Of a stretch of 64,000 nucleotides of DNA, positions 41,816-59,310 are shown in pieces (position 1 is the stretch's first letter; every line of letters starts with the position of its first letter). Under the pieces are notes generated by a model. That model was not told the DNA's origin. It made no database searches and saw only the letters and a list, made by a program, of their open reading frames with translations. The stretch is from Balneolaceae bacterium (GTDB taxonomy: Bacteria; Bacteroidota; Rhodothermia; Balneolales; Balneolaceae). The position numbers were made by a program, and so were the translations under genes. The stretch spans positions 1 to 64,000 of the forward strand of contig SLPZ01000073.1 in assembly GCA_007131725.1 (NCBI GenBank). The letters run 5' to 3'.

Positions 41816-43258
41816 CTATGCTGCGTAGTACGAAGTAATCAGTTCAATAAGTCCGGTTGTGGGGAGCACCGGCTCGATGCCATAATAGACGGTTAAAACA
41901 GCGAGAATTACCAGGCTCGATTTAAACACAAGCCCCGGAGTTATAAGTGAATACTCTTTGTGAGCTTCTTTGAAATAGAGATACACCATCACCCGCAGAT
42001 AGTAATAAACACTGGCCGCGCTCGCCAGCACCCCGATTATTACGAGTGGTATTAACCCGGCATGAACCGCTGCAGCAAATACATAATATTTGCCCAAAAA
42101 CCCTACCATTGGCGGTATTCCCGCGAGAGAAAAGAGAAAAACAGAAAGTGCCACACCCATCACAGGAACTTTGAAGCCAAGGCCGGCATAACTGTCTATT
42201 TCGGTGAAATCGAGCCCGTGATTGCGTTCGTAATAGGCAATCACACCAAAAGCCCCGATGTTCATCAATGTGTAAGCAAACAGGTAATACAAAACCCCGG
42301 AATACCCGGCGGCTGTTCCGGCAGCAAGCCCCACCATCAGGTATCCCGCATGTGCAATACTCGAGTAGGCAAGCATTCGCTTTACATTATCCTGGGCAAG
42401 GGCAATCAGGTTACCAACAATCATTGTTATGATTGCTACCACCTGGATGACGTTGGTCCAGTCTCCGGCTTCGGTTTCGGGCAGCATTCGGCTCAAAATC
42501 AGGATAAATGCCACGAATGTTGCAGATTTTGCAGCCGTTGCCATGAATGCCGTAAGCGTGGTTGGCGTGCCCTGGTATACATCGGGCGTCCACATATGAA
42601 ATGGCACGGCTGCAATTTTGAAAAAGATTCCCACCAGAAGCAGTCCGGAACCGGCGAAAAACAGTAGTGTGGGTTCAGCAGCAGCGGCTATTTCATTCAG
42701 GTTTGTGTGGCCTGTAGCGCCATAAATCAGGGCAATACCGTATAATAGAAACCCGGTGGAAAAGGCACCTAAAAGAAAATATTTAAGAGCGGCTTCAGCG
42801 CCTGTTTTTTCATGCTTGATCAATCCCGCCAAAACATACAGGCAGATCGACATGGTTTCAAGGCTTACAAAGAATGAAATCAGGTCGTTGGAAACAGCAA
42901 GGCCGAGCATCCCGGTGGTAGCAAATAAAATCATGGCATAAACTTCACCGTTATGCAGGTTCAGGTCGCTCAGATATTCCCTGGATATAATCACACAAAA
43001 CAGCGCACCAAGCAAAACAATAAACGTCCCGAATGCACCCGTTCCGCCGTACACTATCATTCCATAAAATGCCGTTCCTGATTCGCCAAACATGGCCTGT
43101 ATGGATATAAGTAGAGCAATAGCCAGGCTGCCTGTGGTTATACCGTATGTTATTTTCATGCCTTTTTTGAAGGCATCAAGCATTATTACCACCAATCCGG
43201 CGGCAGCCACTACAATACCGGGCAAAAATACTTGTAAGTCGTGTAAATAATCCATCAA
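41816..43258 (-). CDS. nuoN: NADH-quinone oxidoreductase subunit N
   Basis: 480 aa; LISFFVSLETMSICLYVLAG, IAAVPFHMWTPDVYQGTPTTLTAFM. Confidence 0.94.
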   Translation of the reverse strand: MMDYLHDLQVFLPGIVVAAAGLVVIMLDAFKKGMKITYGITTGSLAIALLISIQAMFGESGTAFYGMIVYGGTGAFGTFIVLLGALFCVIISREYLSDLNLHNGEVYAMILFATTGMLGLAVSNDLISFFVSLETMSICLYVLAGLIKHEKTGAEAALKYFLLGAFSTGFLLYGIALIYGATGHTNLNEIAAAAEPTLLFFAGSGLLLVGIFFKIAAVPFHMWTPDVYQGTPTTLTAFMATAAKSATFVAFILILSRMLPETEAGDWTNVIQVVAIITMIVGNLIALAQDNVKRMLAYSSIAHAGYLMVGLAAGTAAGYSGVLYYLFAYTLMNIGAFGVIAYYERNHGLDFTEIDSYAGLGFKVPVMGVALSVFLFSLAGIPPMVGFLGKYYVFAAAVHAGLIPLVIIGVLASAASVYYYLRVMVYLYFKEAHKEYSLITPGLVFKSSLVILAVLTVYYGIEPVLPTTGLIELITSYYAA

Positions 43259-43303
43259 CGATCTATTTATTTAATAATCTCAATAAACTTTTCAGGCACA
43301 CGG

Positions 43304-43591
43304 TCAGGCATTGGCTATCACTTCAATAGTTTTGGCAAGTTTAATGTCTTTTTCAGTTACTTTGCCTCCCGCATCGTGAGTGCTTAGCGCAATTTCCACC
43401 CTGTTGTAAACATTGAACCATTCGGGATGATGCACCTGTGCCTCAGCTTCAAATCCAACCTGAAGCATAAATGCCAGCGCCTGTTTAAAATCAGGGAATG
43501 TAAACTGTTTTTTTAGTTTATCATCTTCAAGTTTCCAGCCGTCGAGGGCAGTCAGTTCTTTTTCGATTTTCTCTGGTGATAATGCTTTCAT
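43304..43591 (-). CDS. 4a-hydroxytetrahydrobiopterin dehydratase (PCD/DCoH)
   Basis: 95 aa with EAEAQVHHPEWFNVYNRVEIALSTHDAGG active-site motif. Confidence 0.93.
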   Translation of the reverse strand: MKALSPEKIEKELTALDGWKLEDDKLKKQFTFPDFKQALAFMLQVGFEAEAQVHHPEWFNVYNRVEIALSTHDAGGKVTEKDIKLAKTIEVIANA

Positions 43592-43602
43592 AGTAGTCAG
43601 GT

Positions 43603-45219
43603 TTAATCTTTTTGAACCATCAGGTTCTGTTCAGATTGATGCTCGTGCAGATTATAAATTTTCGCAGTCCAGTCGGGCAGTTCATCCGCATTTGTGTTTT
43701 GTAATACCGTGATGCTCTTCTCCTCTGACTGAGTGATGAATGTATCCACCCACTCCTCAGAAAATTGTGTAAAATCAACCGGGCGAATACCTATCCAGAC
43801 CATGAAAATGACCAATGGAACAAGCAACCCGATTTCCCTGGCATTCAGGTCTATCAGTTTTTCATTTTCTTTATTTGTGATGGGGCCGAAGAACACTCGC
43901 TGATACATCCAAAGCATGTAAACGGCGGCAAGAATCACACCTGTGGCACCAAGTATGGCATACACTTTATTGTCGTAGAGAACAGACATGAAAGTGCCGT
44001 TCAAAATCAAAAATTCACCAACAAATCCGTTCAGGCCGGGCAGGCCGATGGAAGCCAGCGTTGCTATCATAAACATGGTGGCGTAAACCGGCATTTTTTT
44101 GGCAACACCTCCAAAATCGGAAATCATTCGTGTGTGGCGCCGGTCATAAATCATTCCAACAACAAGGAAGAGTGCGCCGGTAGAAAGTCCGTGGTTGATC
44201 ATCTGAATAATAGCTCCCTGCACAGCGATGGTGTTAAAGGCAAAAATTCCAAGCACCACAAACCCAAGGTGGCTGACAGAGGAGTAAGCCACAAGTTTTT
44301 TGACATCTTTCTGAACCATGGCCACAAGTGCACCGTAAATTATTCCGATTACGGCAAGCACCGCCATCAAGGGGGCGAATTCCATAAATGCATTCGGAAA
44401 TACGGGCAAGCACACACGAACCAGGCCGTAGGTTCCCAGCTTCAGCATAATTGCGGCAAGAACCACAGAGCCGGCTGTTGGCGCTTCGGTATGAGCCCAG
44501 GGCAGCCATGTGTGAAACGGAAACAGCGGCACCTTGATGCAAAATGCAAGGGCAAAAGCCAGGAACATCCAGGTTTGCTCAACCAGCCCGGGGGTATATT
44601 CCGCCCCAGAAATAAATCTCCAGTCGGATGAAAATTCGTAGATACCGGTAGCAGCTCCTGCATTGTAGCCCAGGTAGATTAACGCTACCAGCATGATGAG
44701 CGACCCAACCAGAGTATAAATAAAGAACTTGATGGTTGCTTTTATCTTATCACGCCCGCCCCAGATACCAATCAGGAAATACATGGGAATCAGCGAAAGC
44801 TCGAAGAACACGTAAAATACCACCAAATCGAGCGAGGCAAACACACCCAGTGAAGCGGTCTGCAAAATCAGGAGCATGGAGTAGTAACCAATCAGGCTTT
44901 TTTTGATGGAACTCCAGGAAGCCAGAATCACAATAGGGCCAAAAAGGGTTGTGAGCATGAAAAGAAGCAGGCTCAATCCATCGAGGCCGACCAGGTATTT
45001 GATATCCATCCCCGCAAAAATTGGTGTGCCTTCGGTGAGGTACTGAGGTACGGCTGAATTTGCCACATCAAAGTTAAACAGCAACGGCAGTGAAAGGAAA
45101 AAGGTTGCCGTTGTTATGATCAGGCTTGTCCACTTAACGGCTTCATCTTTTTTGATAAACAAAAATGCAACAACGCCAAGCAGCGGTAAATAAATTGTGA
45201 TATTTAGTAATAACTCCAT
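43603..45219 (-). CDS. nuoM: NADH-quinone oxidoreductase subunit M
   Basis: LDLVVFYVFFELSLIPMYFLIGIWGG, KVPLFPFHTWLPWAHTEAPTAGSVVLAAIMLKLGTYGLVR. Confidence 0.96.
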   Translation of the reverse strand: MELLLNITIYLPLLGVVAFLFIKKDEAVKWTSLIITTATFFLSLPLLFNFDVANSAVPQYLTEGTPIFAGMDIKYLVGLDGLSLLLFMLTTLFGPIVILASWSSIKKSLIGYYSMLLILQTASLGVFASLDLVVFYVFFELSLIPMYFLIGIWGGRDKIKATIKFFIYTLVGSLIMLVALIYLGYNAGAATGIYEFSSDWRFISGAEYTPGLVEQTWMFLAFALAFCIKVPLFPFHTWLPWAHTEAPTAGSVVLAAIMLKLGTYGLVRVCLPVFPNAFMEFAPLMAVLAVIGIIYGALVAMVQKDVKKLVAYSSVSHLGFVVLGIFAFNTIAVQGAIIQMINHGLSTGALFLVVGMIYDRRHTRMISDFGGVAKKMPVYATMFMIATLASIGLPGLNGFVGEFLILNGTFMSVLYDNKVYAILGATGVILAAVYMLWMYQRVFFGPITNKENEKLIDLNAREIGLLVPLVIFMVWIGIRPVDFTQFSEEWVDTFITQSEEKSITVLQNTNADELPDWTAKIYNLHEHQSEQNLMVQKD

Positions 45220-45237
45220 GCTGATCTGAAAAAATCT

Positions 45238-47253
45238 TTAAAAGAGTAAAAGTGCGAGTACCAAAATGACTCCGAGAATCATAAATAGCGCATAATTACT
45301 GGCGATTCCGGTTTGAATATATCTGAGCAGGCTGCCGATCAGGCGAACCGTACCGCCAACGGCATTCACAAATCCGTCAATAAATTTTAAATCAAATACC
45401 GCCAGCACCCTGTCGGAAAATTTAACCGTGGGCTGAACAATCATTCCTTCGTAAACCTCGTCAAGGCTGTACTTGTCTTTCCACACCTGGTAGAGTTCGC
45501 CGAATGTGGAAGAAATTTTTGCATCGGCTGCTTCCTGCCCGTCATCGGCATACATCCGGAAGGATACATAAACACCGGCAACGGCAACGGCTGTGGCAAA
45601 GATCATTAACACCCATTCTGCAGGAATGGAAAGTGTAAGCGGTATATCAGCGGCAATCGGGCTCATATAACTGCCCAGCCAGTTGATGGCTCCCTCGCCA
45701 CCAAAAGTTTTGGAAATAAAATTCGGTACTCCGATAAAACCGCCAACAATTGAAAGGCCGGCCAGGGACCAGAGCGGAACCGTCATGCTTGACGGGCTTT
45801 CGTGCAGGTATTCTTCAGCATCTTCAGCACCCTTAACACGCTGCGGCAGTTTAAAGCTTCCGTGGAATGTTGTCAGCGTCAGGCGGAACATGTAGAATGC
45901 CGTGAGGAATGCGGTGATGGTTGCCACCCCCCACAACATAAAATACATGGCGCCGGCAAACTCACCGAAGCCCATATTAAAGGTATGCATCAAAATTTCA
46001 TCTTTGGAAAAGAACCCGGCCAGAGGCGGAATCCCGGCAATGGCAACTGTTGCAATCAAAAAGGTTTTGTAGGTAGAAGGCATGTATTTTCGCAGACCGC
46101 CCATGTTGCGGATATCCTGCGGATCAAAATGCACATCTTTTCCTTTGTCATGCAGTTTGTGCTCAACATGATGCATGGTGTGAATAACCGAACCGGAACC
46201 AAGAAAGAGGCAGGCCTTGAAAAATGCGTGTGTTATCACATGAAACAGCGCGGCGGTATAAGCACCTGCACCCAGGGCAAGAAACATAAACCCAAGCTGC
46301 GACACAGTTGAATAGGCCAGCACACCTTTGATATCATACTGAGTAATGGCAATAGTTGCTGCTACAATGGCGGTCAGTGCACCGATTACTGCGATAATCA
46401 TCATCACTTCGGGGCTGATTACATACATCGATGACATTCGGGTAATCAGGTAAATACCGGAGGTAACCATGGTTGCCGCGTGGATGAGGGCAGACACCGG
46501 GGTTGGGCCGGCCATAGCATCAGGCAGCCATACAAACAGCGGAATCTGGGCACTTTTACCGGTGGCCCCGATAAACATCAGAAATGCAATCCAGAAAACA
46601 GCATCTCCTGAAAATGCCTCCAGGTTGTTTAAAATAACATCAAAATTGAGGCTGCCCACTGTTTGGAAAATCCAGAAAAGGGCGATCAGAAATGCAAAAT
46701 CTCCAACTCTGTTATATAAAAATGCTTTTTTTGCAGCATCCGATTTCATCATATCGGTATACCAGTAACCAATCAGCAGATAGGAGCAGAGCCCCACGCC
46801 TTCCCAGCCGAGGAAAAGCAGCAGCAGGTTATCGGCCAGCACCAGGTTCAGCATTGCAAAGATAAACAGGTTCAGGTAGGCAAAATACTTCCAGAATCCC
46901 GGATCATCTGCCATATATCCAATCGAATAAAGATGAATTAATGAGCCTACACCTGTCACAACCAGGGCCATAATCAGCGATAGCTGATCCAATTGATAAG
47001 CAAAATCAACACTGAAACCGCCTACATCAAACCAGGTAAACAATTTGGCGTGAATAGCGCCCTCTCCGGAAAAATTCAGAAAAAAGTAGGCAGTAATTAA
47101 AAAAGGAATAAATACTGCTGCATTGGAAAGAATTCCGATGATGCTTTTCTGCTTTCGATACCCGTTAAACGACAGGCCTAAAATACCATTGATCAAAAAA
47201 CCAAGAAGCGGTAAACCAATTATCAGACTTACAAGCGCTGTAGGTGATTCCAT
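45238..47253 (-). CDS. nuoL: NADH-quinone oxidoreductase subunit L
   Basis: LLLFLGWEGVGLCSYLLIGYWY, SAQIPLFVWLPDAMAGPTPVSALIHAATMVTSGIYLI, long C-terminal extension. Confidence 0.96.
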   Translation of the reverse strand: MESPTALVSLIIGLPLLGFLINGILGLSFNGYRKQKSIIGILSNAAVFIPFLITAYFFLNFSGEGAIHAKLFTWFDVGGFSVDFAYQLDQLSLIMALVVTGVGSLIHLYSIGYMADDPGFWKYFAYLNLFIFAMLNLVLADNLLLLFLGWEGVGLCSYLLIGYWYTDMMKSDAAKKAFLYNRVGDFAFLIALFWIFQTVGSLNFDVILNNLEAFSGDAVFWIAFLMFIGATGKSAQIPLFVWLPDAMAGPTPVSALIHAATMVTSGIYLITRMSSMYVISPEVMMIIAVIGALTAIVAATIAITQYDIKGVLAYSTVSQLGFMFLALGAGAYTAALFHVITHAFFKACLFLGSGSVIHTMHHVEHKLHDKGKDVHFDPQDIRNMGGLRKYMPSTYKTFLIATVAIAGIPPLAGFFSKDEILMHTFNMGFGEFAGAMYFMLWGVATITAFLTAFYMFRLTLTTFHGSFKLPQRVKGAEDAEEYLHESPSSMTVPLWSLAGLSIVGGFIGVPNFISKTFGGEGAINWLGSYMSPIAADIPLTLSIPAEWVLMIFATAVAVAGVYVSFRMYADDGQEAADAKISSTFGELYQVWKDKYSLDEVYEGMIVQPTVKFSDRVLAVFDLKFIDGFVNAVGGTVRLIGSLLRYIQTGIASNYALFMILGVILVLALLLF

Positions 47254-47571: not shown

Positions 47572-48132
47572 ATGAATAAGCTCTCAATCTACAGTCTTAG
47601 CCTTTCCTTCATCTCGCTGATGATCTTCTGGATTATTATGAGCGGGCTTTTGACGTTTATCCACATTGGCTTTGGTGTGGTTACAGTGGCTTTGGTTATG
47701 TTTGTTAATTATCAATTAAAAACTCACCGCTTTTTCCATGATGACATGGATGATTTAAGTGAGCTGAGGATTACCAGGGCAGTATATTATGTAATGTGGA
47801 TGGTCGTGCAAATTGTAGCTGCAGGTTTCCATGTGGCATACATTATTTTAAGCCCGTCGATGAAAATTCATACCACTATTTTGAAATTTAAAACCGACCT
47901 GCCGAGTGCCCATGCACGTATGATTCTCGGAAATTCGATTACACTTACCCCGGGCACACTTACAGTTGATATCGAAGGCGAACACTTTACCGTCCACTCG
48001 CTCGATGACAAATCCTGCGAAAGCCTTGTAAGTGATAAAATGCCCCGTGAAGTGCTGAAATTATTTCAAAAAGATGAGCGGCAGGTGATACATGAGATGC
48101 AAATAGTAAAAGTAACCGAACCCGGAAGTTGA
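47572..48132 (+). CDS. mrpE: Mrp/Mnh antiporter subunit E (MbhA-like)
   Basis: ARMILGNSITLTPGTLTVDIEGEHFTVHSLD. Confidence 0.9.
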   Translation: MNKLSIYSLSLSFISLMIFWIIMSGLLTFIHIGFGVVTVALVMFVNYQLKTHRFFHDDMDDLSELRITRAVYYVMWMVVQIVAAGFHVAYIILSPSMKIHTTILKFKTDLPSAHARMILGNSITLTPGTLTVDIEGEHFTVHSLDDKSCESLVSDKMPREVLKLFQKDERQVIHEMQIVKVTEPGS

Positions 48133-48404
48133 TGGAACATTTTTTTCTTTACAGCGCGGTTATTTTGACCATCATTATTGCAGTACCTCTTTACAGGGTT
48201 CTGAACGGGCCTACCCTATTCGACAGGCTGCTTGCAACCAATGCCATTGCTACCAAAACCATTGTATTAATAGCTTTGATCGGCTTCTTGTTTGACCGGA
48301 TTGATATGTTTATTGACATCACTTTGGCATATGCCATACTTGGTTTTATCGGGTCCCTGATTATTGCCAAATTTGTTACAACCGAAAAAGTAGAGCCCGA
48401 ATGA
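48129..48404 (+). CDS. mrpF: Mrp/Mnh antiporter subunit F (MbhB-like)
   Basis: YRVLNGPTLFDRLLATNAIATKTIVLIALIGFL...DITLAYAILGFIGSLIIAKF. Confidence 0.9.
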   Translation: MMEHFFLYSAVILTIIIAVPLYRVLNGPTLFDRLLATNAIATKTIVLIALIGFLFDRIDMFIDITLAYAILGFIGSLIIAKFVTTEKVEPE

Positions 48405-48733
48405 CAGACATTCAATCCATCATAAGCATTGTCTTAGTTGTTATCGGCATATTTTTTATGTTTGTGGGAAGTGTGGGCATTATAAGGCTGCCGGATTTTT
48501 ACGCCCGTACCCATTCAGTCAGTAAGAGCGATACCCTTGGAATTATTTTTGTGATTGTGGGTCTGGTAATCTACGAAGGTTTTACCCAGAGCAGCCTCAA
48601 ACTTCTGTTGATTGTGCTGTTTATTGCTCTCTCTAACCCTGTTGGAACTCATGCACTTGCCAGAGCTGCTCTCAAAAGCGGGCTCAATCCGTTCTTCAGT
48701 GATGATGAATTAAAAAAGGAGAGTAAAAAATGA
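48401..48733 (+). CDS. mrpG: Mrp/Mnh antiporter subunit G (MbhC-like)
   Basis: FMFVGSVGIIRLPDFYARTHSVSKSDTLG...NPVGTHALARAAL. Confidence 0.92.
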   Translation: MTDIQSIISIVLVVIGIFFMFVGSVGIIRLPDFYARTHSVSKSDTLGIIFVIVGLVIYEGFTQSSLKLLLIVLFIALSNPVGTHALARAALKSGLNPFFSDDELKKESKK

Positions 48734-48975
48734 TCTGGGAAGTTGAACTTATCATCCTCGTTTTTTTAGCACTCTCTGCCATTGTAGCGCTTGAAGTGAA
48801 AGATATGCTTGTGGCAGTTGTGATGATGACCATTTTCAGCTTTTTGATGGCACTGCTTTTTATTGCGATGGGCGCCATTGATGTAGGATTTACCGAAGCG
48901 GTTATCGGCGCCGGTGTAACCGGAATTTTGTTTGTTGTTGTTGTATTTCAAACCTCAAGAAAATCAAACGATTGA
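48730..48975 (+). CDS. DUF4040/MbhD-like subunit (MrpA C-terminal piece)
   Basis: ALEVKDMLVAVVMMTIFSFLMALLFIAMGAIDVGFTEAVIGAGVTGILFVVVV. Confidence 0.85.
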   Translation: MIWEVELIILVFLALSAIVALEVKDMLVAVVMMTIFSFLMALLFIAMGAIDVGFTEAVIGAGVTGILFVVVVFQTSRKSND

Positions 48976-49280
48976 AGATATTTAAAATACTCATATTGGT
49001 TCTTTTTGCTGCCGTATTAATTTATGCAGCCTCCGATTTGCCTTATCGCGGCGACCCCGATAACCTGATGCATGCTGAACAGAGCATCACGGACACACGG
49101 GTTATGGGAAGCTATTTCATACAAAATGCTTACCGGGACGCCAGAACGCCCAATATGGTAACCGTGGTGCTTGGTGATTACAGAAGTATTGATACCTTCG
49201 GCGAGCAGATTGTGATTTATACCGCAGGCCTCATTGCTCTCCTGGTGCTAAGAAAAACCAAAAGGAGGAGAGTTGTATGA
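48972..49280 (+). CDS. MbhE-like subunit
   Basis: YFIQNAYRDARTPNMVTVVLGDYRSIDTFGEQIVIYTAGL; TTG start overlapping the upstream stop. Confidence 0.85.
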   Translation: MKIFKILILVLFAAVLIYAASDLPYRGDPDNLMHAEQSITDTRVMGSYFIQNAYRDARTPNMVTVVLGDYRSIDTFGEQIVIYTAGLIALLVLRKTKRRRVV

Positions 49281-49717
49281 ACAAACCTTTTCAAACCCCG
49301 ATTGTGCTGCTTGGTGCACGTCTGCTCAGCCCCTATATCATGCTATTTGGCTGGTATGTCATCATTCACGGACATTACAGCCCGGGTGGTGGTTTCCAGG
49401 GGGGGGCATTGCTGGCAGCGTCAATACTGCTGATTCGCGTTGCCGGCGGGCGAAGGGTTGCCCAATTACAGATTAAGGAATTTGCAACTACACCGCTGGC
49501 TGTTGTCGGGGTTTCAATCTACTTTGCCGCCGGGCTGGTGGCGGTTGCCATGGGCGGGTATTTTCTCGATTACGGCATGCTGCCGATTCCCGGCATGGAT
49601 CCCGCCTGGCTCAGGTACACCGGAATTTTAATAATTGAAGTAGGAATAGGCCTTGCCGTAATGGCCATCCTGGTAATGATTTACGACAACATGGTAAGAG
49701 GAGAAGATTATGGCTGA
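49277..49717 (+). CDS. mrpB: Mrp/Mnh antiporter subunit B (MbhF-like)
   Basis: ARLLSPYIMLFGWYVIIHGHYSPGGGFQGGALLAASILL. Confidence 0.92.
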   Translation: MNKPFQTPIVLLGARLLSPYIMLFGWYVIIHGHYSPGGGFQGGALLAASILLIRVAGGRRVAQLQIKEFATTPLAVVGVSIYFAAGLVAVAMGGYFLDYGMLPIPGMDPAWLRYTGILIIEVGIGLAVMAILVMIYDNMVRGEDYG

Positions 49718-50078
49718 TTTTTTTCTTGGGCATTATGCATACTGGTTTACAATTATCCTGCTGTGTATTGGCCTTTATGGAATTTTATTTAAGAAAAACC
49801 TGATCAAAAAAACTATAGGGCTGGCAATTCTTCAGATCTCTGTGGTGATGTACTTTGTTTCCGTTGCATCAAAATGGGATGCAACTGTTCCTGTGCTTGA
49901 CCCCAACATCCCGGTTGACCAGGTTGCCAATTACCTGAACCCGCTTCCACACACTTTGATGCTTACCGCCATTGTTGTGGGGGTGGCTACCCTTGGAGTG
50001 GCATTCACTCTTTTAATTGCCGTTTACAACCGTTACGAAACACTCGACGAAGAAGAACTGATAGATAAAATTCAATGA
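49710..50078 (+). CDS. mrpC: Mrp/Mnh antiporter subunit C (NuoK-like; MbhG-like)
   Basis: CIGLYGILFKKNLIKKTIGLAILQISVVMYFVSVA...PLPHTLMLTAIVVGVATLGVAFTLLI. Confidence 0.92.
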   Translation: MADFFLGHYAYWFTIILLCIGLYGILFKKNLIKKTIGLAILQISVVMYFVSVASKWDATVPVLDPNIPVDQVANYLNPLPHTLMLTAIVVGVATLGVAFTLLIAVYNRYETLDEEELIDKIQ

Positions 50079-51556
50079 TTGAGTCGCATCTCCCGGCATA
50101 TATCGCTTTAACTTTTTTGCTGTTTTCGGTGTTGATTCCCGCATTCGGAATCTGGAGAGATGAACTCTCTCAGCCACTTGCGGTTATTGGATCAGGCCTG
50201 GCTGCAGGTTTCTCTATTTATGGATTTTATAGCTACCTGCAGCTTGGAAGTATCCGGTATTTCTTTGGCGGATGGGAACCACCCATTGGCATCGAATTTG
50301 TTTACGATGGGCTGTCCGGATTTTTTGCGCTGGTTATAAACACCGTCGCATTTTTTGTAATCATCCATTCAAACAAAATTTCAAAAAGGGAATTTCCCGG
50401 CAAAGAGATGCCCTATTACGCCCTGGCCATGCTGATGATGCTTGGCTTTAACGGTATGGTGCTGACCGGCGATTTGTTTAATCTCTATGTATTCCTTGAA
50501 ATTGCTTCACTTGCCGGATATGCAATTATTGCAATCGGAGACAGGCAGGCGCCTTATGCAGCTTTCAGATACCTGATCATCGGCACGGCCGGCGGAACGC
50601 TCTACCTGCTTGGAGTCGGTTTTTTATATACGGTGACCGGTACGCTGAATATCATTGATATGTCGGCTATGCTGCCTCAATTTGCCGGCAGCACCGCTGT
50701 GGTAGCCGCCCTCATCCTGATGATTGTCGGGATTGGCGTGAAAGCTGCCCTGTTTCCCATGCACGGATGGCTGCCCGACTCGTATACCTACGCATCGTCC
50801 AGTTCAACCGCACTGATTGCCCCCATCGGCACCAAGGTTGCGGCTTACATTTTATTCAGAATCATTCTGTGGTTATTTGGGGTTGAGCTGACCGATGCCG
50901 TGGTTCCGTTCACATACATTGTCGGGGTGCTGGCATGTATCGGGATTTTGTACGGATCAATCATGGCTATCGCCCAGTCCGAAATGAAACGGATGCTGGC
51001 TTACAGTTCGGTTTCTCAGATCGGGTACATCATCATGGGGCTGAGCCTGGCTAATCCCTGGGGATTTGCAGGTGCACTGCTGCATGTTTTGAATCATGCC
51101 ATCATGAAAGCAGCACTATTTATGATCAGCGGACAAATCAGGTTTAAAGAAGGGCATTCAAGCGTCAACATGTTTGATGATACCTATCGAAAAAAATATC
51201 CCTGGACGATGGCTGCATTTACAGTAACGGCAATTTCCATGGTGGGGCTGCCTCCGCTTGCCGGCTTTTTCAGCAAGTGGTATCTCGCCCTGGGCACCAT
51301 TGACAACAGCAACTGGCTGTTCCTGGCCGTCATTTTGATCAGCTCGCTGCTCAATGCCGTCTATTTTTTCCGGATACTTGAAAAGGTGTATATGATGAAT
51401 CCGGACAAGGGGCAAAAAGAGGCCGCTGATGCCGAACGAGACGAGTTTAGCGGAAGCATGCTCTGGCCGACAAGCATTCTGGCATTCAGCCTCATCGTAA
51501 TCGGCTTTGCCAATGCAATTATTGTAGGAGTTCTTTTAAATATTTTTCCGATGTAA
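50075..51556 (+). CDS. mrpD: Mrp/Mnh antiporter subunit D (MbhH-like), first copy
   Basis: LFNLYVFLEIASLAGYAI; GIGVKAALFPMHGWLPDSYTYASSSSTALIAPIGTKVAAYI. Confidence 0.93.
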   Translation: MIESHLPAYIALTFLLFSVLIPAFGIWRDELSQPLAVIGSGLAAGFSIYGFYSYLQLGSIRYFFGGWEPPIGIEFVYDGLSGFFALVINTVAFFVIIHSNKISKREFPGKEMPYYALAMLMMLGFNGMVLTGDLFNLYVFLEIASLAGYAIIAIGDRQAPYAAFRYLIIGTAGGTLYLLGVGFLYTVTGTLNIIDMSAMLPQFAGSTAVVAALILMIVGIGVKAALFPMHGWLPDSYTYASSSSTALIAPIGTKVAAYILFRIILWLFGVELTDAVVPFTYIVGVLACIGILYGSIMAIAQSEMKRMLAYSSVSQIGYIIMGLSLANPWGFAGALLHVLNHAIMKAALFMISGQIRFKEGHSSVNMFDDTYRKKYPWTMAAFTVTAISMVGLPPLAGFFSKWYLALGTIDNSNWLFLAVILISSLLNAVYFFRILEKVYMMNPDKGQKEAADAERDEFSGSMLWPTSILAFSLIVIGFANAIIVGVLLNIFPM

Positions 51557-51575
51557 TCTCCCCTTGATGGGGTAT

Positions 51576-51680
51576 GTGTTTAGTGGAATTAGAACCTTTG
51601 CCAAAGGCATCCCTTTAGGGCAAGCGTTCCCGGCGGCTGTCGGGGACTCTGGCAGGTTGTTTGTTTATCCCACCCCTTAC
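51576..51680. repeat. Possible degenerate member of the dispersed intergenic repeat family inside the Mrp operon
   Basis: gtgtttag...gactctggcagg shared with 20296-20405; located in an unusually long gap (51557-51726). Confidence 0.4.
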
Positions 51681-51726
51681 AAGGGGCATTTACTTTATTG
51701 ACAGATTTTAAAACTTAAATTAACCG

Positions 51727-53199
51727 ATGGATCTTTCCCTCGTACCTTTACTGGCCGTTTTGGTTTCGCTTATTGCGGTTGTTCCGATACTGTTGAGCTC
51801 GGACAAGCCAAACCTGCGTGAAACATGGACCATTCTGGCAGCCTTTATCAAATTCGGGCTTGTACTTTTATTGGTGCCCGGTGCAATTGAAGGCAAATCC
51901 GTTGAGCTCCATCTTGTAGACCTGGCTCCCGGAATGCCACTGGCACTCAACGCCGATCCGCTTGGGGTATTTTTTGCCGTTATCGCTTCCGGTCTCTGGA
52001 TATTTACATCCTTCTACTCCATCGGGTATGTGCGAGGAGCGGGTGAACACAAACAAACCCGCTATTTTGCCAGCTTTGCCGTCTGCCTGTCGGCAACCAT
52101 CGGTATTGCATTTTCTGCCAACCTGCTCACTTTTGTTCTCTTTTATGAAATTCTAACCGTAGCCACCTATCCCCTTGTCATTCATAACGAAGGAAAGGAG
52201 GCAATCAATGCCGGGCGTAAATATCTCGCATTTACTTTGACCGCTGGCTTGCTCCTGGTAGCTGGTTCGGCGATGGTTTATATCTACACCGGGTCAATTG
52301 ATTTTACACCGGGTGGGTTGTTCAGCGGAATTGAACTACCTCACACAGCCATGCTGGTGCTGTTTATTATCTTTTTGGGAGCAGTGGGTGTAAAGGCGGG
52401 CATCATGCCCATTCATAGCTGGCTGCCTGCTGCTATGGCCGCCCCCACTCCGGTAAGTGCACTGCTCCACGCCGTGGCCGTTGTAAAGTCGGGTGTATTT
52501 GCCGTGATACGTGTGGCCGGATATGTTTTCGGTACAGAAACGATGGGCAATTACGGGCTTGACGATATTTTAATTGTAATTGCCGGTGCCACCATCATCC
52601 TGGCATCGCTGATTGCCTTCGCGCAGGATAACTTGAAACAGCGGCTTGCCTACTCTACGGTCGGGCATTTATCATACATTGTGTTAGGAGTTGCACTGCT
52701 CACTCCTTTTGGAATGCAGGGCGGCATCATGCACATTGCTGCACACGCCACGCTGAAGATTACTCTCTTTTTCTGTGCCGGGGCCATTTATGTGAACCTG
52801 AAACGGAAAAATATCAGCCAGTTAAACGGTATTGCGAAATCCATGCCCTGGACAATGGCAGCATTTACGATTGGCTCAATGGGGCTGGCCGGCATTCCGC
52901 CCATTAACGGTTTTTTCAGTAAATGGACGCTTGCATTGGGTTCATTAGACGGAGATATGGTCATTCCCGTCATAGTATTGGTTGTGAGCGGCCTGCTGAA
53001 TGTGGGATACTTTTTCCCGATCATTTACAGGGCCTATTTTAAACCGCCGGAAGGGCTTGAAGGGTATGGAGAAGCTTCTCCGCTGATGGTGGTTCCCATT
53101 ATGGTAACGGCCATTTTATCTGTACTGTTTGGGTTTTTCCCGAACCTCTTTTTCGGGCTGTACGACCTGGCCGTAAACATCAGTTTGTCACTTTTTTAA
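51727..53199 (+). CDS. NuoM/NuoL/MrpD-family antiporter subunit, second copy
   Basis: LLTFVLFYEILTVATYPLVI; GVKAGIMPIHSWLPAAMAAPTPVSALLHAVAVVKSGVFAVIRV. Confidence 0.92.
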   Translation: MDLSLVPLLAVLVSLIAVVPILLSSDKPNLRETWTILAAFIKFGLVLLLVPGAIEGKSVELHLVDLAPGMPLALNADPLGVFFAVIASGLWIFTSFYSIGYVRGAGEHKQTRYFASFAVCLSATIGIAFSANLLTFVLFYEILTVATYPLVIHNEGKEAINAGRKYLAFTLTAGLLLVAGSAMVYIYTGSIDFTPGGLFSGIELPHTAMLVLFIIFLGAVGVKAGIMPIHSWLPAAMAAPTPVSALLHAVAVVKSGVFAVIRVAGYVFGTETMGNYGLDDILIVIAGATIILASLIAFAQDNLKQRLAYSTVGHLSYIVLGVALLTPFGMQGGIMHIAAHATLKITLFFCAGAIYVNLKRKNISQLNGIAKSMPWTMAAFTIGSMGLAGIPPINGFFSKWTLALGSLDGDMVIPVIVLVVSGLLNVGYFFPIIYRAYFKPPEGLEGYGEASPLMVVPIMVTAILSVLFGFFPNLFFGLYDLAVNISLSLF

Positions 53200-53211
53200 C
53201 TATCAGACTCC

Positions 53212-53424
53212 ATGAAGAACTTTCACTGGATCATATTAGGCATCATTTTCATCATTACGCTGGTACTTGAATTTACCGTACTGGCCGATTACGACAGCCA
53301 CTGGTGGAATGCCATCCCCGCTTTTTATGCCATTTTCGGTTTTGTGATGTGTTATGCCCTTGTTTATTCGGCCAAGTTTATTGCAAAAAAAATTGTGAAC
53401 AGAGACATCAACTATTATGATTGA
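53212..53424 (+). CDS. Small 2-TM protein embedded in the antiporter operon
   Basis: 70 aa, MKNFHWIILGIIFIITLVLEFTVLADYDSHWWNAIPAFYAIFGFVMCYALVYSAKFIAKKIVNRDINYYD; stop overlaps the next start. Confidence 0.8.
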   Translation: MKNFHWIILGIIFIITLVLEFTVLADYDSHWWNAIPAFYAIFGFVMCYALVYSAKFIAKKIVNRDINYYD

Positions 53425-55132
53425 GATTCTCGCCATACCGGGTGTAATATTGTTAATCGGGGCAGCGCTGCTCTCTTTCTTTTCTGAAAAACTGCGCCCC
53501 GTTCTGTTTCTGGTATTTCCGCTGATTGCAGCCGCGGTGATCATCCTGCGCCCGGAAGGCTACAGTGTAACCAGCCAGTTGCTGCACTACGATCTCGTAC
53601 TAATGCAAACCGATGCCCTCAGCAATCTCTTCGGAATCGTCTTTGCACTTGGGGCTTTTGTTGCCGGTGTGTACGCATTTCATATGAAAGAACTGGGGCA
53701 GCAGATCTGTGCTCTCGGATATGCCGGTGGTGCATTGGGAGTAACGTATGCCGGAGATCTTCTCACCCTGATTATTTTCTGGGAAATTATGGCAGTGGCT
53801 TCCACATGGCTGATCTGGGCACAGCGTACTCCCGCAACAGATGCTGCCGGAATGCGCTACCTGATTTATCACATTCTCGGAGGAGGGCTCCTTTTTGCCG
53901 GAATTCTCTGGCACTCGGTCGTAACCGGCTCAATCGCTATTGAAACCATTCCGATGGAATACACGCCGGCCAATGTTCTGATGCTTCTGGGAATTGCCGT
54001 CAACGCAGCTGTAATTCCGTTGCACACCTGGCTGTCTGATGCTTATCCAAAAGCCACACTCACCGGCACCATTTTTATGAGCATCTTTACCACCAAAACG
54101 GCCGTTTACGTTCTCATCCGGATGTATTCGGGCTGGGAAATGCTCGTATTTTTCGGTGCGGCAATGGCCATCTACGGAATTTATTACGCGGTAATCTGCA
54201 AAGACATGCGCGAAATTCTCTCCTATCACATCATCAGCCAGGTTGGCTATATGGTGGCGGCGATCGGTGTGGGAAGTGAGCTTGCCGTAAATGGTGCAGC
54301 AGCACATGCATACAACAATATTCTCTATAAATCTTTGATGTTCATGGCTGTAAGCGCCGTAATGTATTCAGCCGGAACCAGTAAAATGTTCCACCTTGGC
54401 GGGCTCTACAAAAAAATGCCCTGGGTTCTCGGGCTTTATGTGGTTGGCGGGCTTTCCATCTCCGGTATTCCCTTGTTCGCCGGATTTGTCAGCAAAGGAA
54501 TGGTGATTGATGCGGCCGGTTATGGTGGTTACGAAACCATCATGCTGGTTCTTCTGGTTGCTTCGGTGGGTACATGGCTCAGTGTCGGCCTCAAGCTTCC
54601 CTACTTCACCTGGTTCGACAAACAGGATTATGAGGGCGAATTAAAACCTATTCCTGTGAACATGTATATCGCGATGGGAATTCTTGCCTTTGCATGTATT
54701 TTCTATGGCATCTTCCCGAATGCACTTTATACTTTCCTGCCGCATGAAACCGGTTATGAGCCCTACACGGTGTATCACCTGGTTGAAATCACTCAAATTG
54801 CACTGTTAACTTTTGTGGGATTCTGGCTGCTCAGAAAAAAGCTGGCGCCCGAACTCACGACGGTTCTCGACCTGGACTGGTTCTATCGCAAAGCCGCCCC
54901 TGCCACTCGCCTGGTTTTCGTTGAAAAAGTAGATACTTTCTATGCACATGTTGAAGACGGCATCCAGGCATCGGCCCGCTATCTTGCCGATAAGTTTCAA
55001 AACCCGATGCGATGGCTCAATCCATTTACAGACGAAAAAAATGAAGCCTCAAGCTACAGCCCGGCTATGGAAGTGGTGATGAGCTTTATACTGCTCTGTT
55101 TCCTGGTTTTTGCCATAATCTACTTTTTATAA
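53417..55132 (+). CDS. NuoM/MrpD-family antiporter subunit, third copy (571 aa)
   Basis: LLTLIIFWEIMAVASTWLIWAQ; AVNAAVIPLHTWLSDAYPKATLTGTIFMSIFTTKTAVYVLIRM. Confidence 0.92.
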   Translation: MIEILAIPGVILLIGAALLSFFSEKLRPVLFLVFPLIAAAVIILRPEGYSVTSQLLHYDLVLMQTDALSNLFGIVFALGAFVAGVYAFHMKELGQQICALGYAGGALGVTYAGDLLTLIIFWEIMAVASTWLIWAQRTPATDAAGMRYLIYHILGGGLLFAGILWHSVVTGSIAIETIPMEYTPANVLMLLGIAVNAAVIPLHTWLSDAYPKATLTGTIFMSIFTTKTAVYVLIRMYSGWEMLVFFGAAMAIYGIYYAVICKDMREILSYHIISQVGYMVAAIGVGSELAVNGAAAHAYNNILYKSLMFMAVSAVMYSAGTSKMFHLGGLYKKMPWVLGLYVVGGLSISGIPLFAGFVSKGMVIDAAGYGGYETIMLVLLVASVGTWLSVGLKLPYFTWFDKQDYEGELKPIPVNMYIAMGILAFACIFYGIFPNALYTFLPHETGYEPYTVYHLVEITQIALLTFVGFWLLRKKLAPELTTVLDLDWFYRKAAPATRLVFVEKVDTFYAHVEDGIQASARYLADKFQNPMRWLNPFTDEKNEASSYSPAMEVVMSFILLCFLVFAIIYFL

Positions 55133-55187
55133 AACAAAGAGATTAGGCGCTTAAAGCGCCGTGAATACCAACATGTTTTCGATATAT

Positions 55188-55221
55188 AGTTGACAGTTGA
55201 TAATTTGATCAACTGTCAACT
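55188..55221. repeat. Perfect inverted repeat in the gap after the antiporter operon
   Basis: AGTTGACAGTTGAT / ATCAACTGTCAACT, 14-bp arms, loop aatttg. Confidence 0.85.
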
Positions 55222-55500
55222 GCCTTTTGTTAACTTTACCCATTATCTATTCAGATCAGCTCTTTCCTTTTTCCAACTTTTTTAGTTACTTAGATGCGTA
55301 CCTGAGAATTACGGCAGCCTTACCGCCGTATGATGATTAGTGATTGCAAAATGGACAAAATTTAAGAAGAGAGCAGTTTGCGATAATAAATCCTGTCCAT
55401 TAAAGCATTTCATCTAAATGATATGAAATCTTGCCCGAGCAGATGAAGCCTGTCCGCTCTTAGAACCGATTACCTTCTGTTAACTACGGAGAAAAAATCC

Positions 55501-58500
55501 ATGAAATTTGAGGGACATCGCATTTGGATTGCGCTTTTATTAGCCGTTTTGATCGTAAGTGGATATTTTTTCTATACCTTTCGATCAAATCAGGCACAAC
55601 TGCATGACCAGAGTATCCGGAGTCTTAGTATTACCCAATCCAACCTGAAGAATAGTTGGGAGGCCTATAAAATGCGCTGCAGAATACCTCCAGATGTCGG
55701 TGGAATAGAGGAAACAAACATTTCAGAAACTGACAGTTTGAAAAAAGTACTGAACATCTTGCTCAGTTCTATGCCCCCCAGCGATTTTTTCGATATAACC
55801 ATTATTACCGACTCTTCCGGGCAGGTGCTGGTTACCAAACCTGAAGCAATTATTGACAGGATGCCGGTAGGCGAGAACATTCAAACAGAAGAAATAAAAC
55901 TCGGCATTATAGACTCTGAACTAACTATTTCAGGTGACAATTACCAAATATTCCAGGTGCCCATACACTTGCAATGGGACCAACAAAATTGCCTCTGGAG
56001 ATCTGAAAACCAAGATTCAGAAAATGCAAACCAGGACATAGAATCTGAAAACCTGAATTCGGAAACTGAAAATCAGAACTCAGAACCTGATAACCTAAAA
56101 TCTGAATCTGAAAAAATCATTCTTTACGGTGCCCTTAGTCAGGAAAATTTTAACCAGGTTCGCTGGCGTATTCCGTTTATAGCCATTTATTTTCTGCTAA
56201 GCCTCGTAATTTTAATTATTGCCTCTTACCCTGTAATTCGAATTTTGGGAATGGGACGAGGCGATAGAATGACAGGTTCACAGGTATATCAGACAGGGCT
56301 CTCCCTTATTCTCCTTTCGCTATTTATAGGATTTTCTATCTCTTACTTTGCCAGCAGGCATGAAATCAAAAATAATCAGAGTGATTATGTGCAGAGCCTC
56401 ATTAATAATGTTGAGAAAATGCAGAAAGCTCAACTTTCAAAGTACATAATGTTATTGGATTTATTCATCAAAGTAGGAGGTGAACCTGTAAATAAATCTA
56501 ATATACAATATAATGAAACGATTGTAAGTGATATTGAGGGAAATATCCAACACTTGTGGCTTAGTTCAGATAAAAAAGCGATTGAAGATACTTTAATAAA
56601 TGATTTACCTGATTTAGCCACTCGGCATTATATAAAACGAGCTGTTGATGATAATTTTTATCATGGATCTCATTACTCATATAATCGGGGAAAATTCGAA
56701 AATGTAATCAGCAAGAAAAAGGTTTATTCAAACGAAAGAGACCACTCATATGAATTGATTCATGCAATAACTTTCAACAACGAAATTTATGATGCAGTAG
56801 ATACCTTATATACGAATCCAATTGGCCTGAAATATCTCATCATCAATGAAATCGGCGAGGTATATTATCGGCCGCCTTCGGTGAATACGGCTATTTTTAA
56901 CCTGAGAGAGGCAATACATCCTCGTCAATGGGATGAGGTTCTGGTATTGATGCAGAATAACGATTCTACGGAAACACCATTGCAAATTAATATCTATTTT
57001 GAAGGCCAGCGTTTTAATGCCTTTCTGCAAAAAATGTCTACAGAACCACTCAATCTGAAAGAATCCTCCTGGATTCTCGTGTTCGACGATCCCAATCTGC
57101 TGGCATTTCGCAGTTACTCGGCATTTATGTATTCGGCTGTCGGTTATTTATTCCTGCTGATTATTTTCCTTGCCATTGGCCTGATATCGTATGCGATCAG
57201 GCCGGAGGTCTATTATCTCTCATTCCGCAGGTTTAATCAATATTTTTTCAGGCCGTCTTTTAAGAAGCGCAAAGAGAATGTAATCCTATGTTTGATCATA
57301 TCTACGCATATCCTCTTTTTTATCATCATTTTAAATTGTATAGATATTCATCACATTTGGCTGCTTTTACTTCTTTTTGGGTTAACCGTTCCATTTATCA
57401 TACTATCGCGGCACCTCCTGCTGTCTGATTTTCTTCAAAAACTAACAACAGCATCATCCTGGAAATTTCCACTGTCGGTATTCGCTGTTATTCTGCTGAT
57501 CCTTTATTTCCTTTATCACTTGCCGGTTATCGAATTTCACTACTTATTGATTTTATTATTTCTGTTAGGAATTCAAGCCGGATGGATAATATTTATCATA
57601 TGGGCATTCAATAACTATCCGTTTCAGATTCAAAAAAAATTAAAAAAAATACTCTGGCTCCGTGGCATATCAAACTTTATAAAGGCGTTTGTTCGAAACC
57701 CGAATCAAATGTTTTCTTTTACATTTGCAATTTGGGCGCTGCTGATCGGAATGATTGCGGGTTATGCCATTCATCACTCCGCATTCCATTATGAAGACAA
57801 ACTCTGGGAGCTTGCAGTTGAACACAAGACCGGAGAACCACACCTTCACGAAGACAATAAAAACCATGTGGAACATTCTTCCAGAAGTACCAATCATGAT
57901 CACAACGGCCATTTTCATACGGCAAGTTTAAATCCCTTTTTAAATCACTTTGAGTATTGGCGAAGGCAATGGCTCTTTAATTATACGGGTATAGATTATC
58001 CGGTCATCAACCGTTATATCTATGCCGGAAGATCCCAAATTATGGATGCCTTTGATCACGATCATACTGAAGAAAATGATCATTCTCACCAAGTTCACCA
58101 TTCAAAAGAACCACTAACTTTATTTCTGATCGTTCTTTCATTTCTTGCTGGTTTTATGCTGCTCTATTATCTCGTAAAAATCCTCTCAAAACGCATTTTC
58201 CTGACTGAATACTGGAAATTTTTGCCCGATCCGGCACCTGCTCCAAAAATCAAAAACTATACCTATATACTGACCCCTGATCCCGAAAATGCGCTGAGGG
58301 AACTCCAATCCGGGTTTTTAAAGAATAAAAAATACAAAATACTCAATCTCGCCGGACGGTCGGAACGGGAAAAATTGCGACGGACTGAAGCATCCGGCAG
58401 TATTCCATTTGGCATCCTGTTGAAAGACACCGACGGAATTGCATTACTGAATGCAGACCGTGCACTCCGCTCTTCAGATGACATCGAAAATCTCACAGAT

Positions 58501-59310
58501 CTTATTACAATCTTCAAACAAAAGGAAAAATTTGTTCTGATGACCGGATCAAAAAGCATGAAAGACCTGCAGGAATCCGTGCTTTCCGACAAGGATCCCG
58601 AGCGGGACCATGCACTGCTGAACTGGATGGATGTAACAGGATCGTTTTTTTCAAGCCTCATACCCGTCGGTTACGGGCTTAAACCACCTGAGCCCGGCAA
58701 AGAATCATCCGGCAACAAATATGTCGAAAAGCTGAGAAGAGAAATTTTGTACGGCCCTCACACAAAAGCACTTTCCTATCTTGTAAAACTCGCTGATAAT
58801 GAAGCAAAATCCGGAAAATTTGGCAAAAAAGAGTACCAGAGATGCATCCTGAATATTCAAAGGCACAACAAATCGTATTATCAGAATTTATGGGATCAGC
58901 TCACATTCCGTGAAAAACAGATGGTGAATAACTATGCAAATGAAGGATTTGTAAACTACTCCAATATCGGTGTGGTAACAGAATTACTCCAAAAGGGCAT
59001 TTTCAGATATGACGACCGGCACGAAGACATCAGGCTTTTTAACATAAGCTTCTGCAATTTTGCAACTCAGGCCGTAACCGGTCAGCTTGCCAAAGAATTT
59101 AAAAAAGATAAAAAACTGCACGGAAATGTAAGCCATTTAAGAAATGCTATTCTTACAATTTTTTTCCTTACCATTCTCGGTATTGCCATTATCAGGCCAG
59201 AACTACCCCAGCAATATATTGGTGCCATCAGCGGCGGTCTTGCCCTCATCAGCTCTCTTGCATCGGTTGCCGGTAAACTCCCTTGGAACATTCCCATTCT
59301 CGAAAAGTAA
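55501..59310 (+). CDS. Large multi-TM protein of unknown function with His-rich segments and a cytoplasmic C-terminal NTPase-like/wHTH-like region
   Basis: 1269-aa ORF; N-term TM plus extracytoplasmic segment, multiple central TM helices, HDHNGHFH and HDHTEENDHSHQVHH segments, C-term soluble region and terminal TM pair. Confidence 0.8.
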   Translation: MKFEGHRIWIALLLAVLIVSGYFFYTFRSNQAQLHDQSIRSLSITQSNLKNSWEAYKMRCRIPPDVGGIEETNISETDSLKKVLNILLSSMPPSDFFDITIITDSSGQVLVTKPEAIIDRMPVGENIQTEEIKLGIIDSELTISGDNYQIFQVPIHLQWDQQNCLWRSENQDSENANQDIESENLNSETENQNSEPDNLKSESEKIILYGALSQENFNQVRWRIPFIAIYFLLSLVILIIASYPVIRILGMGRGDRMTGSQVYQTGLSLILLSLFIGFSISYFASRHEIKNNQSDYVQSLINNVEKMQKAQLSKYIMLLDLFIKVGGEPVNKSNIQYNETIVSDIEGNIQHLWLSSDKKAIEDTLINDLPDLATRHYIKRAVDDNFYHGSHYSYNRGKFENVISKKKVYSNERDHSYELIHAITFNNEIYDAVDTLYTNPIGLKYLIINEIGEVYYRPPSVNTAIFNLREAIHPRQWDEVLVLMQNNDSTETPLQINIYFEGQRFNAFLQKMSTEPLNLKESSWILVFDDPNLLAFRSYSAFMYSAVGYLFLLIIFLAIGLISYAIRPEVYYLSFRRFNQYFFRPSFKKRKENVILCLIISTHILFFIIILNCIDIHHIWLLLLLFGLTVPFIILSRHLLLSDFLQKLTTASSWKFPLSVFAVILLILYFLYHLPVIEFHYLLILLFLLGIQAGWIIFIIWAFNNYPFQIQKKLKKILWLRGISNFIKAFVRNPNQMFSFTFAIWALLIGMIAGYAIHHSAFHYEDKLWELAVEHKTGEPHLHEDNKNHVEHSSRSTNHDHNGHFHTASLNPFLNHFEYWRRQWLFNYTGIDYPVINRYIYAGRSQIMDAFDHDHTEENDHSHQVHHSKEPLTLFLIVLSFLAGFMLLYYLVKILSKRIFLTEYWKFLPDPAPAPKIKNYTYILTPDPENALRELQSGFLKNKKYKILNLAGRSEREKLRRTEASGSIPFGILLKDTDGIALLNADRALRSSDDIENLTDLITIFKQKEKFVLMTGSKSMKDLQESVLSDKDPERDHALLNWMDVTGSFFSSLIPVGYGLKPPEPGKESSGNKYVEKLRREILYGPHTKALSYLVKLADNEAKSGKFGKKEYQRCILNIQRHNKSYYQNLWDQLTFREKQMVNNYANEGFVNYSNIGVVTELLQKGIFRYDDRHEDIRLFNISFCNFATQAVTGQLAKEFKKDKKLHGNVSHLRNAILTIFFLTILGIAIIRPELPQQYIGAISGGLALISSLASVAGKLPWNIPILEK

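Follow-up and report, generated by a model that had tools for sequence, protein, structure and literature searches.

A group 3 Mrp cation/proton antiporter operon in a Balneolaceae bacterium and its D2-x-D3 gene trio, found elsewhere in complex I

A stretch of 64,000 nucleotides from a Balneolaceae bacterium (assembly GCA_007131725.1, contig SLPZ01000073.1, positions 1 to 64,000; the window) was used for the analysis. Open reading frame (ORF) and Pfam searches identified an 11-gene operon at 47572-55132 on the forward strand in the order MrpE-F-G-MbhD-MbhE-MrpB-C-D1-D2-x-D3, where D1 to D3 are antiporter subunits and x is a small membrane protein. Our analysis makes it very probable that this operon encodes a stand-alone group 3 Mrp cation/proton antiporter, most likely for Na+/H+, serving cytoplasmic pH and Na+ homeostasis in this soda-lake bacterium. 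The stand-alone reading is favoured because one tight operon brings together every Mrp subunit family and no hydrogenase or DabA partner was found. The analysis further revealed that D2-x-D3 is a portable trio, part of an Mrp antiporter here and of complex I elsewhere. The genome is a metagenome-assembled genome of 88.6% completeness, and the absences reported below hold for the available assembly. Its origin is taken to be soda-lake sediment, as read from the isolate label CSSed of the closest public record (95% D3 identity).

Gene content of the operon

The features of the operon are listed below with coordinates, strand, length in amino acids (aa) or base pairs (bp) and search results.

47572..48132, +, MrpE/MnhE (MbhA), 186 aa; PF01899 4.6e-30, 104.8 bits; best NCBIfam model NF009295, below its cut-off
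48129..48404, +, MrpF (MbhB), 91 aa; PF04066 1.4e-13
48401..48733, +, MrpG (MbhC), 110 aa; PF03334 1.1e-28; NF009314 and TIGR01300 above cut-off
48730..48975, +, MbhD/DUF4040, 81 aa; PF13244 9.8e-17, 61.3 bits (cut-off 27.2)
48972..49280, +, MbhE, 102 aa; PF20501 3.8e-09, 36.9 bits (cut-off 27)
49277..49717, +, MrpB/MnhB (MbhF), 146 aa; PF04039 2.3e-24
49710..50078, +, MrpC/MnhC (MbhG, NuoK-like), 122 aa; PF00420 1.5e-19; MrpC models are best
50075..51556, +, D1, MrpD/MbhH-type antiporter subunit, 493 aa; PF00361 2.4e-59; best PDB matches MbsH, MrpD and MbhH
51557..51726, no strand, D1-D2 gap, 170 bp; fragments of short dispersed genomic repeats
51727..53199, +, D2, antiporter subunit, 490 aa; PF00361 2e-58
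53212..53424, +, x, small membrane protein, 70 aa; no Pfam match
53417..55132, +, D3, antiporter subunit with C-terminal arm, 571 aa; NF009310 662 bits (cut-off 564)
55187..55222, +, probable operon terminator, strong hairpin with 15-bp stem and T-rich tail; pattern match only

The three antiporter subunits score 201, 198 and 126 bits against PF00361 (Proton_antipo_M), and D3 is taken in by the NCBIfam model NF009310 ('Na(+)/H(+) antiporter subunit D'). The genes abut or overlap, the exception being the 170 bp that separate D1 and D2. All 11 genes are intact in related Balneolaceae (D3 identity 72-95%), so the arrangement is not a product of chance.

Assignment to group 3 Mrp

Group 3 Mrp systems are defined by the absence of mrpA and the presence of one or several mrpD (PMC8415708). 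Analysis of the operon revealed no mrpA gene, three PF00361 subunits, and MrpB, C, E, F and G together, each above its Pfam cut-off. The full-length MrpA that marks groups 1 and 2 is absent. The antiporter half follows the mbhA-H order of the homology table in PMC8415708, with three further genes after it and none of the MbhI-N hydrogenase and membrane-anchor genes. Homologues of the D2-x-D3 of two-MrpD complex I are present, and they lie 3' of mrpC and D1, not between nuoK and nuoM. On this gene content the operon is assigned to an already described class, group 3 Mrp.

An earlier sequence-only reading had given the coordinates, the strand and the E-F-G-MbhD-MbhE-B-C-D order equal to mbhA-H, in agreement with the ORFs, the Pfam matches and the homology table. 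Two antiporter subunits and a 70-aa gene do follow in place of mbhI-N, as it stated; its link to Mbh was overstated, since the same order is found in stand-alone group 3 operons. The composition it called unusual is unusual against groups 1 and 2, not for group 3, which is defined by mrpA absence with several mrpD. The arrangement is also not novel, and the ground on which that reading itself would have given up novelty, a description already in print, applies: MrpEFGBCD1D2D3 is published for the haloalkaliphilic verrucomicrobium Verruconatronum alginivorum, a soda-lake isolate, over eleven consecutive locus tags (PMC13274419), the same order and an 11-gene locus range, a likeness taken from the published description and not from sequence.

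Comparison with other known systems revealed likenesses of different extent. In 'Ca. Nitrospira alkalitolerans' a group 3 operon is followed, after mrpD, by two NuoM/NuoL-like genes (PMC7784846), a likeness likewise taken from the published description. The stand-alone mrpEFGBB'CD of P. furiosus also lacks mrpA; unlike the present operon, it has a single D and nothing MrpA-like among its subunits. Gene order differs in the cyanobacterial group 3 cluster of Aphanothece (mrpCD1D2EFGAB). The Mnh operons of Halosolutus (locus L115) and Haloterrigena (L116) read E-F-G-DUF4040-B-C-D-D-D, and their D3 is of the same family; they differ in having a single DUF4040 gene, a long hydrophilic insert in D2, no x, and a D3 only 32-38% identical. 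Pyrococcus MBH and MBS share the MbhA-H order, and in MBS a further antiporter subunit, MbsH', bears a lateral helix; the present operon has three antiporter subunits against one or two there, without MbhI-N or MbsJ-N genes.

Equivalents of MrpA

No full-length MrpA (about 780 aa or more) was found in the operon or in the 88.6% complete genome, and none of the PF00361 subunits of the operon is MrpA-length or C-terminally fused. The earlier statement that full-length MrpA is missing is thus borne out, with all nine PF00361 genes of the genome (D1 to D3, nuoL-M-N of the window and nuoL-M-N of contig C250) and its one MnhB match accounted for; the latter is that of the operon, and no second Mrp is present. 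The same reading had placed the C-terminal part of MrpA in two small genes, and this also holds, as MbhD and MbhE match MrpA models (NCBIfam) near residues 600-690 and 710-790, respectively. By these alignments MbhD corresponds to the first part of MrpA transmembrane helices (TM) 17-21 and MbhE to the last part.

Residues were read from an alignment of D1, D2 and D3 with MrpA, MrpD and NuoL/M/N. All proton-path residues are retained in D1 (E142, K223, K254, H337, K401) and in D2, which has the full MrpA/NuoL set (E141, K223, H248, K254, H336, K399). At the H248 column histidine occurs in MrpA and NuoL and is found in none of MrpD, NuoM, NuoN, D1 and D3; the nearest neighbours of D2 in the tree are MrpA and NuoL (93/88). 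D3 retains E123, K227, H297 and K360, and the TM7 lysine is replaced by asparagine (N196). Asparagine occupies this position in all D3 proteins examined, whether from Mrp, complex I, haloarchaeal (L115 and L116 included) or rhizobial loci, with the early-branching L077 (lysine) as the only exception.

The AlphaFold model of D3 has a mean predicted local distance difference test score (pLDDT) of 82, and its top match in the PDB is MrpA (7qru_A), followed by other MrpA and NuoL-type chains. The modelled fold of D3 is of the MrpA/NuoL type with a C-terminal arm, the predicted arm helix spanning 39 residues in the operon D3 versus 56 in a complex I D3.

Overall, D2, D3, MbhD and MbhE jointly cover every part of MrpA. 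The trio D2-x-D3 thus seems to replace MrpA TM1-16/NuoL in split form, which accounts for the 'missing' MrpA. Two points escaped the sequence-only reading: D2-x-D3 is a conserved trio that stands in NuoL's place in some complex I, and it is the probable source of the MrpA half that is lacking here. A more specific proposal, which we put forward tentatively as possible rather than probable, is that the trio is a three-part MrpA TM1-16/NuoL substitute, with D2 as proton channel, D3 as a mainly structural arm and x as its dedicated small subunit, and that the trio originated in group 3 Mrp, from which complex I acquired it on one occasion.

Gene x and the D2-x-D3 trio in complex I

Searches of Pfam and the PDB with gene x gave no matches. 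Its homologues, 70-90 aa long in most loci, lie directly 5' of D3 in Mrp and complex I contexts alike, and about 60 loci have the motif WW..IPaFy..FGF..C....SK......redYYd in common. Only ORFs directly upstream of D3 were counted, as an automatic hidden Markov model search drew spurious long ORFs in some loci.

Among the loci retrieved, 35 carry the trio in NuoL's place; they come from Verrucomicrobiota, Lentisphaerota, Thermodesulfobacteriota and other groups, and the genes are arranged as NuoK, D2, x and D3 followed by NuoM (and NuoN where the contig extends). A NuoL-like gene was found nearby in only one of the 35 (L043). At L064 a check of the genes upstream of the trio gave nuoA, B, C, D, H, I, J and K. 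Complex I of this kind, with two MrpD for NuoL, includes the rhizobial 'green' complex I and part of Manganitrophaceae Complex_I_3. Gene-for-gene homology of the trio is seen in S. meliloti pSymA, where the annotation reads J-K-D2-hypothetical-D3-M-N-A-B-C-D-E-F-G. The 84-aa 'hypothetical protein' there (L114, 11754-12008), between two MrpD-like complex I subunits, is an x homologue. These systems differ from the present operon in that the trio lies in a nuo operon and the D3 arm is longer and NuoL-type. A complex I with two MrpD-like subunits replacing NuoL is known, as stated in a passage of PMC9040806 that cites Degli Esposti and Martinez Romero 2016. Gene x, its presence in both contexts and the lysine-to-asparagine change in TM7 of D3 were not found described in the open papers searched, most subscription journals lying outside that search.

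A single branch sets the 24 complex I sequences apart in each of the two trees (D3 82/96; D2 90/86). Mrp-context sequences of Desulfuromonadales are sister to the complex I group in the D3 tree (90/100); there the complex I context is nested within the Mrp context, and one transfer of the trio from Mrp to complex I is therefore favoured by this tree. The D2 tree shows each context simply as sister to the other, which leaves the direction unsettled.

Since the trio takes NuoL's place in these 35 loci and in S. meliloti pSymA, its products in the present cell might also join complex I as extra pumps, in the manner of the rhizobial 'green' complex I. We regard this as exceedingly improbable. The C-terminus of the operon D3 is shaped differently from the complex I type, and each complex I of the genome has its own NuoL. 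The NuoL on C250, in a set of only three pump genes, has an arm as long (74 residues) as the D3 arm of a four-pump complex I, which would speak for such joining; an extended arm is also seen in Chlorobaculum, where L, M and N were the only pump genes detected, so arm length is unreliable.

Arm length had been considered as a count of pumps, the distance from Y to Q.G being 34 in MrpA (two pumps), 49 in NuoL (three) and 74 in complex I D3 (four). The count was dropped on account of the same two proteins. The C250 NuoL (L102:9274-11310, 11-subunit-type complex I) has 74 residues from Y to QTG versus 49 in the NuoL of the window, with a repeated 'DDNIxDGxVN' segment in an operon with only L, M and N; the Chlorobaculum NuoL (L085) is similarly extended.

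Search for partners in the genome

The MbhA-H gene order raises an alternative, namely that the operon is the membrane arm of a larger redox-driven Mbh/Mbs-like complex with its electron-transfer partner encoded elsewhere, as the sequence-only reading had also suggested. A split nuoLMN set adjoins the operon divergently in the window and at L111, L112 and L113, which is in line with this alternative. Analysis of the genome argues against it, and we judge it very unlikely. Only two NuoD/MbhL homologues are present, both in complex I loci (with nuoA-H on contig C291 and in a nuo cluster), and no MbhL-like protein was found outside complex I; in the 99% complete congener G012, which has this operon and one nuoLMN, there is just one NuoD homologue. 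The operon has no MbhM/NuoH-like gene. The sole NiFe hydrogenase locus, on contig C39, was identified by reading sequences and consists of HoxE/F/U-like and hyp maturation genes without membrane subunits, that is, a soluble Hox-like enzyme. An Mbh/Mbs partner elsewhere was thus rejected for this assembly of 88.6% completeness. A carbon-transport module (DabAB/MpsAB) was likewise rejected, as DabA (PF10070) gave no match in the genome and did so in control genomes.

The nuoL-M-N genes of the window (41816-47253, reverse strand) stand head to head with the Mrp operon and are followed by rpsF and rplI homologues, not nuoA-K. As nuoA-H lie on C291 (L107), with nuoI-K not located, these genes are parts of one complex I split over loci, and its part in the window is ordinary. 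Throughout the genus, its more distant members included (L111-L113), nuoLMN and the Mrp operon remain paired divergently. At the hydrogenase locus (L117, soluble NAD-type), a 1055-aa HoxF-like protein with an extra C-terminal oxidoreductase region occurs along with hypA and hypB.

Distribution and descent

In a search of relatives, D3 passed its family cut-off in 23 of the 25 genomes that belong to the genus, and one genome from a different family also gave such a match; across the phylum only 10 of 198 sampled genomes did so. Two sister-family loci (L108, L109) carry a group 1 operon, F-G-A(776-778 aa)-B-C-D-E, with full MrpA. The congener G012 has only the group 3 operon plus one nuoLMN. The group 3 operon and the full-MrpA group 1 operon are thus distributed as though each stood in for the other.

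Outside the phylum the same gene order occurs in Clostridia and other Bacillota (L041, L050, L080) and in Desulfuromonadales (L072), with partial versions at L074 and L077. Haloarchaeal plasmids (L115, L116) have this order with a single DUF4040 gene for MbhD-MbhE and no x. Horizontal transfer as the source of the operon is suggested because Balneolaceae D2 and D3 group with Bacillota sequences in the trees (98/97, 92/86).

Proposed function

Of the earlier suggestions, that of a stand-alone Na+/H+ antiporter has the best support. In the simplest account, separate polypeptides and one additional pump-like subunit take the place of MrpA. A review (PMC5703873) describes Na+/H+ antiport in E. coli by the Aphanothece halophytica group 3 cluster. 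The analysis itself shows the gene content, the homologies, the conserved residues, the fold of D3, the conservation in relatives and the lack of other partners in the available assembly; we infer assembly into one complex, the position of D2 and D3 and the stoichiometry, and take activity, ion specificity and direction from the class. In the proposed mechanism the Na+ path would be made up of MrpE, F, G and B. MbhD, MbhE, MrpC and D1 would provide the junction and a first route for protons, by analogy with Mrp, MBH and MBS. The N-terminal pump half of MrpA (TM1-16) would be replaced by D2, x and D3 together, with D2 as carrier of the MrpA/NuoL-type proton path and D3 as the distal subunit whose arm clamps the row. 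Entry of H+ down the membrane potential would drive Na+ out.

Several points weigh against this proposal. Lys223 of Bacillus MrpA, at the TM7 position occupied by asparagine in D3, is half of a 'strictly conserved' Glu/Lys pair (PMC9568556); because this Glu-pairing lysine is replaced, D3 may not conduct protons in the usual style. The D3 arm is modelled with low confidence (pLDDT about 41-57). The group 3 Mrp of P. furiosus is proposed to run the opposite way, with Na+ entry driving H+ extrusion (PMC8415708), and Ca2+ transport has been reported for one Mrp (PMC5703873); the ion and the direction are uncertain for these two reasons. An antiporter for K+ or Ca2+, or one reversed as in the P. 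furiosus proposal (H+ out, Na+ in), finds further room in that group 3 members are little studied. We nevertheless hold it unlikely: the P. furiosus Mrp has no MrpA-like energy-input subunit (PMC8415708) and the present operon has D2 and D3, and a soda-lake habitat favours Na+ extrusion and H+ uptake.

Other features of the operon region and the window

The D1-D2 gap (51557-51726) contains pieces resembling repetitive extragenic palindromic (REP) repeats, with 11 further partial genomic matches (80-100% over 24-55 bp). An Rfam scan of 41-56 kb found no riboswitch or other RNA element upstream of the operon, and sigma-70 promoter matches were no more frequent than in shuffles. Directly downstream, at 55501-59310, lies a 1269-aa multi-TM ORF with no Pfam match. 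A 1212-aa protein encoded at 26687-30325 is a 2-oxoglutarate dehydrogenase E1 fused to a 2-oxoacid dehydrogenase acyltransferase domain.

Significance

As an operon this is one more group 3 Mrp, and its interest is comparative. The differences between Mrp groups have been called poorly studied, and the same trio serves in an antiporter here and in NuoL's place in complex I elsewhere, linking two families of ion pump. If D3 indeed does not pump, rhizobial and related complex I would have been credited wrongly with an 'extra pump'.

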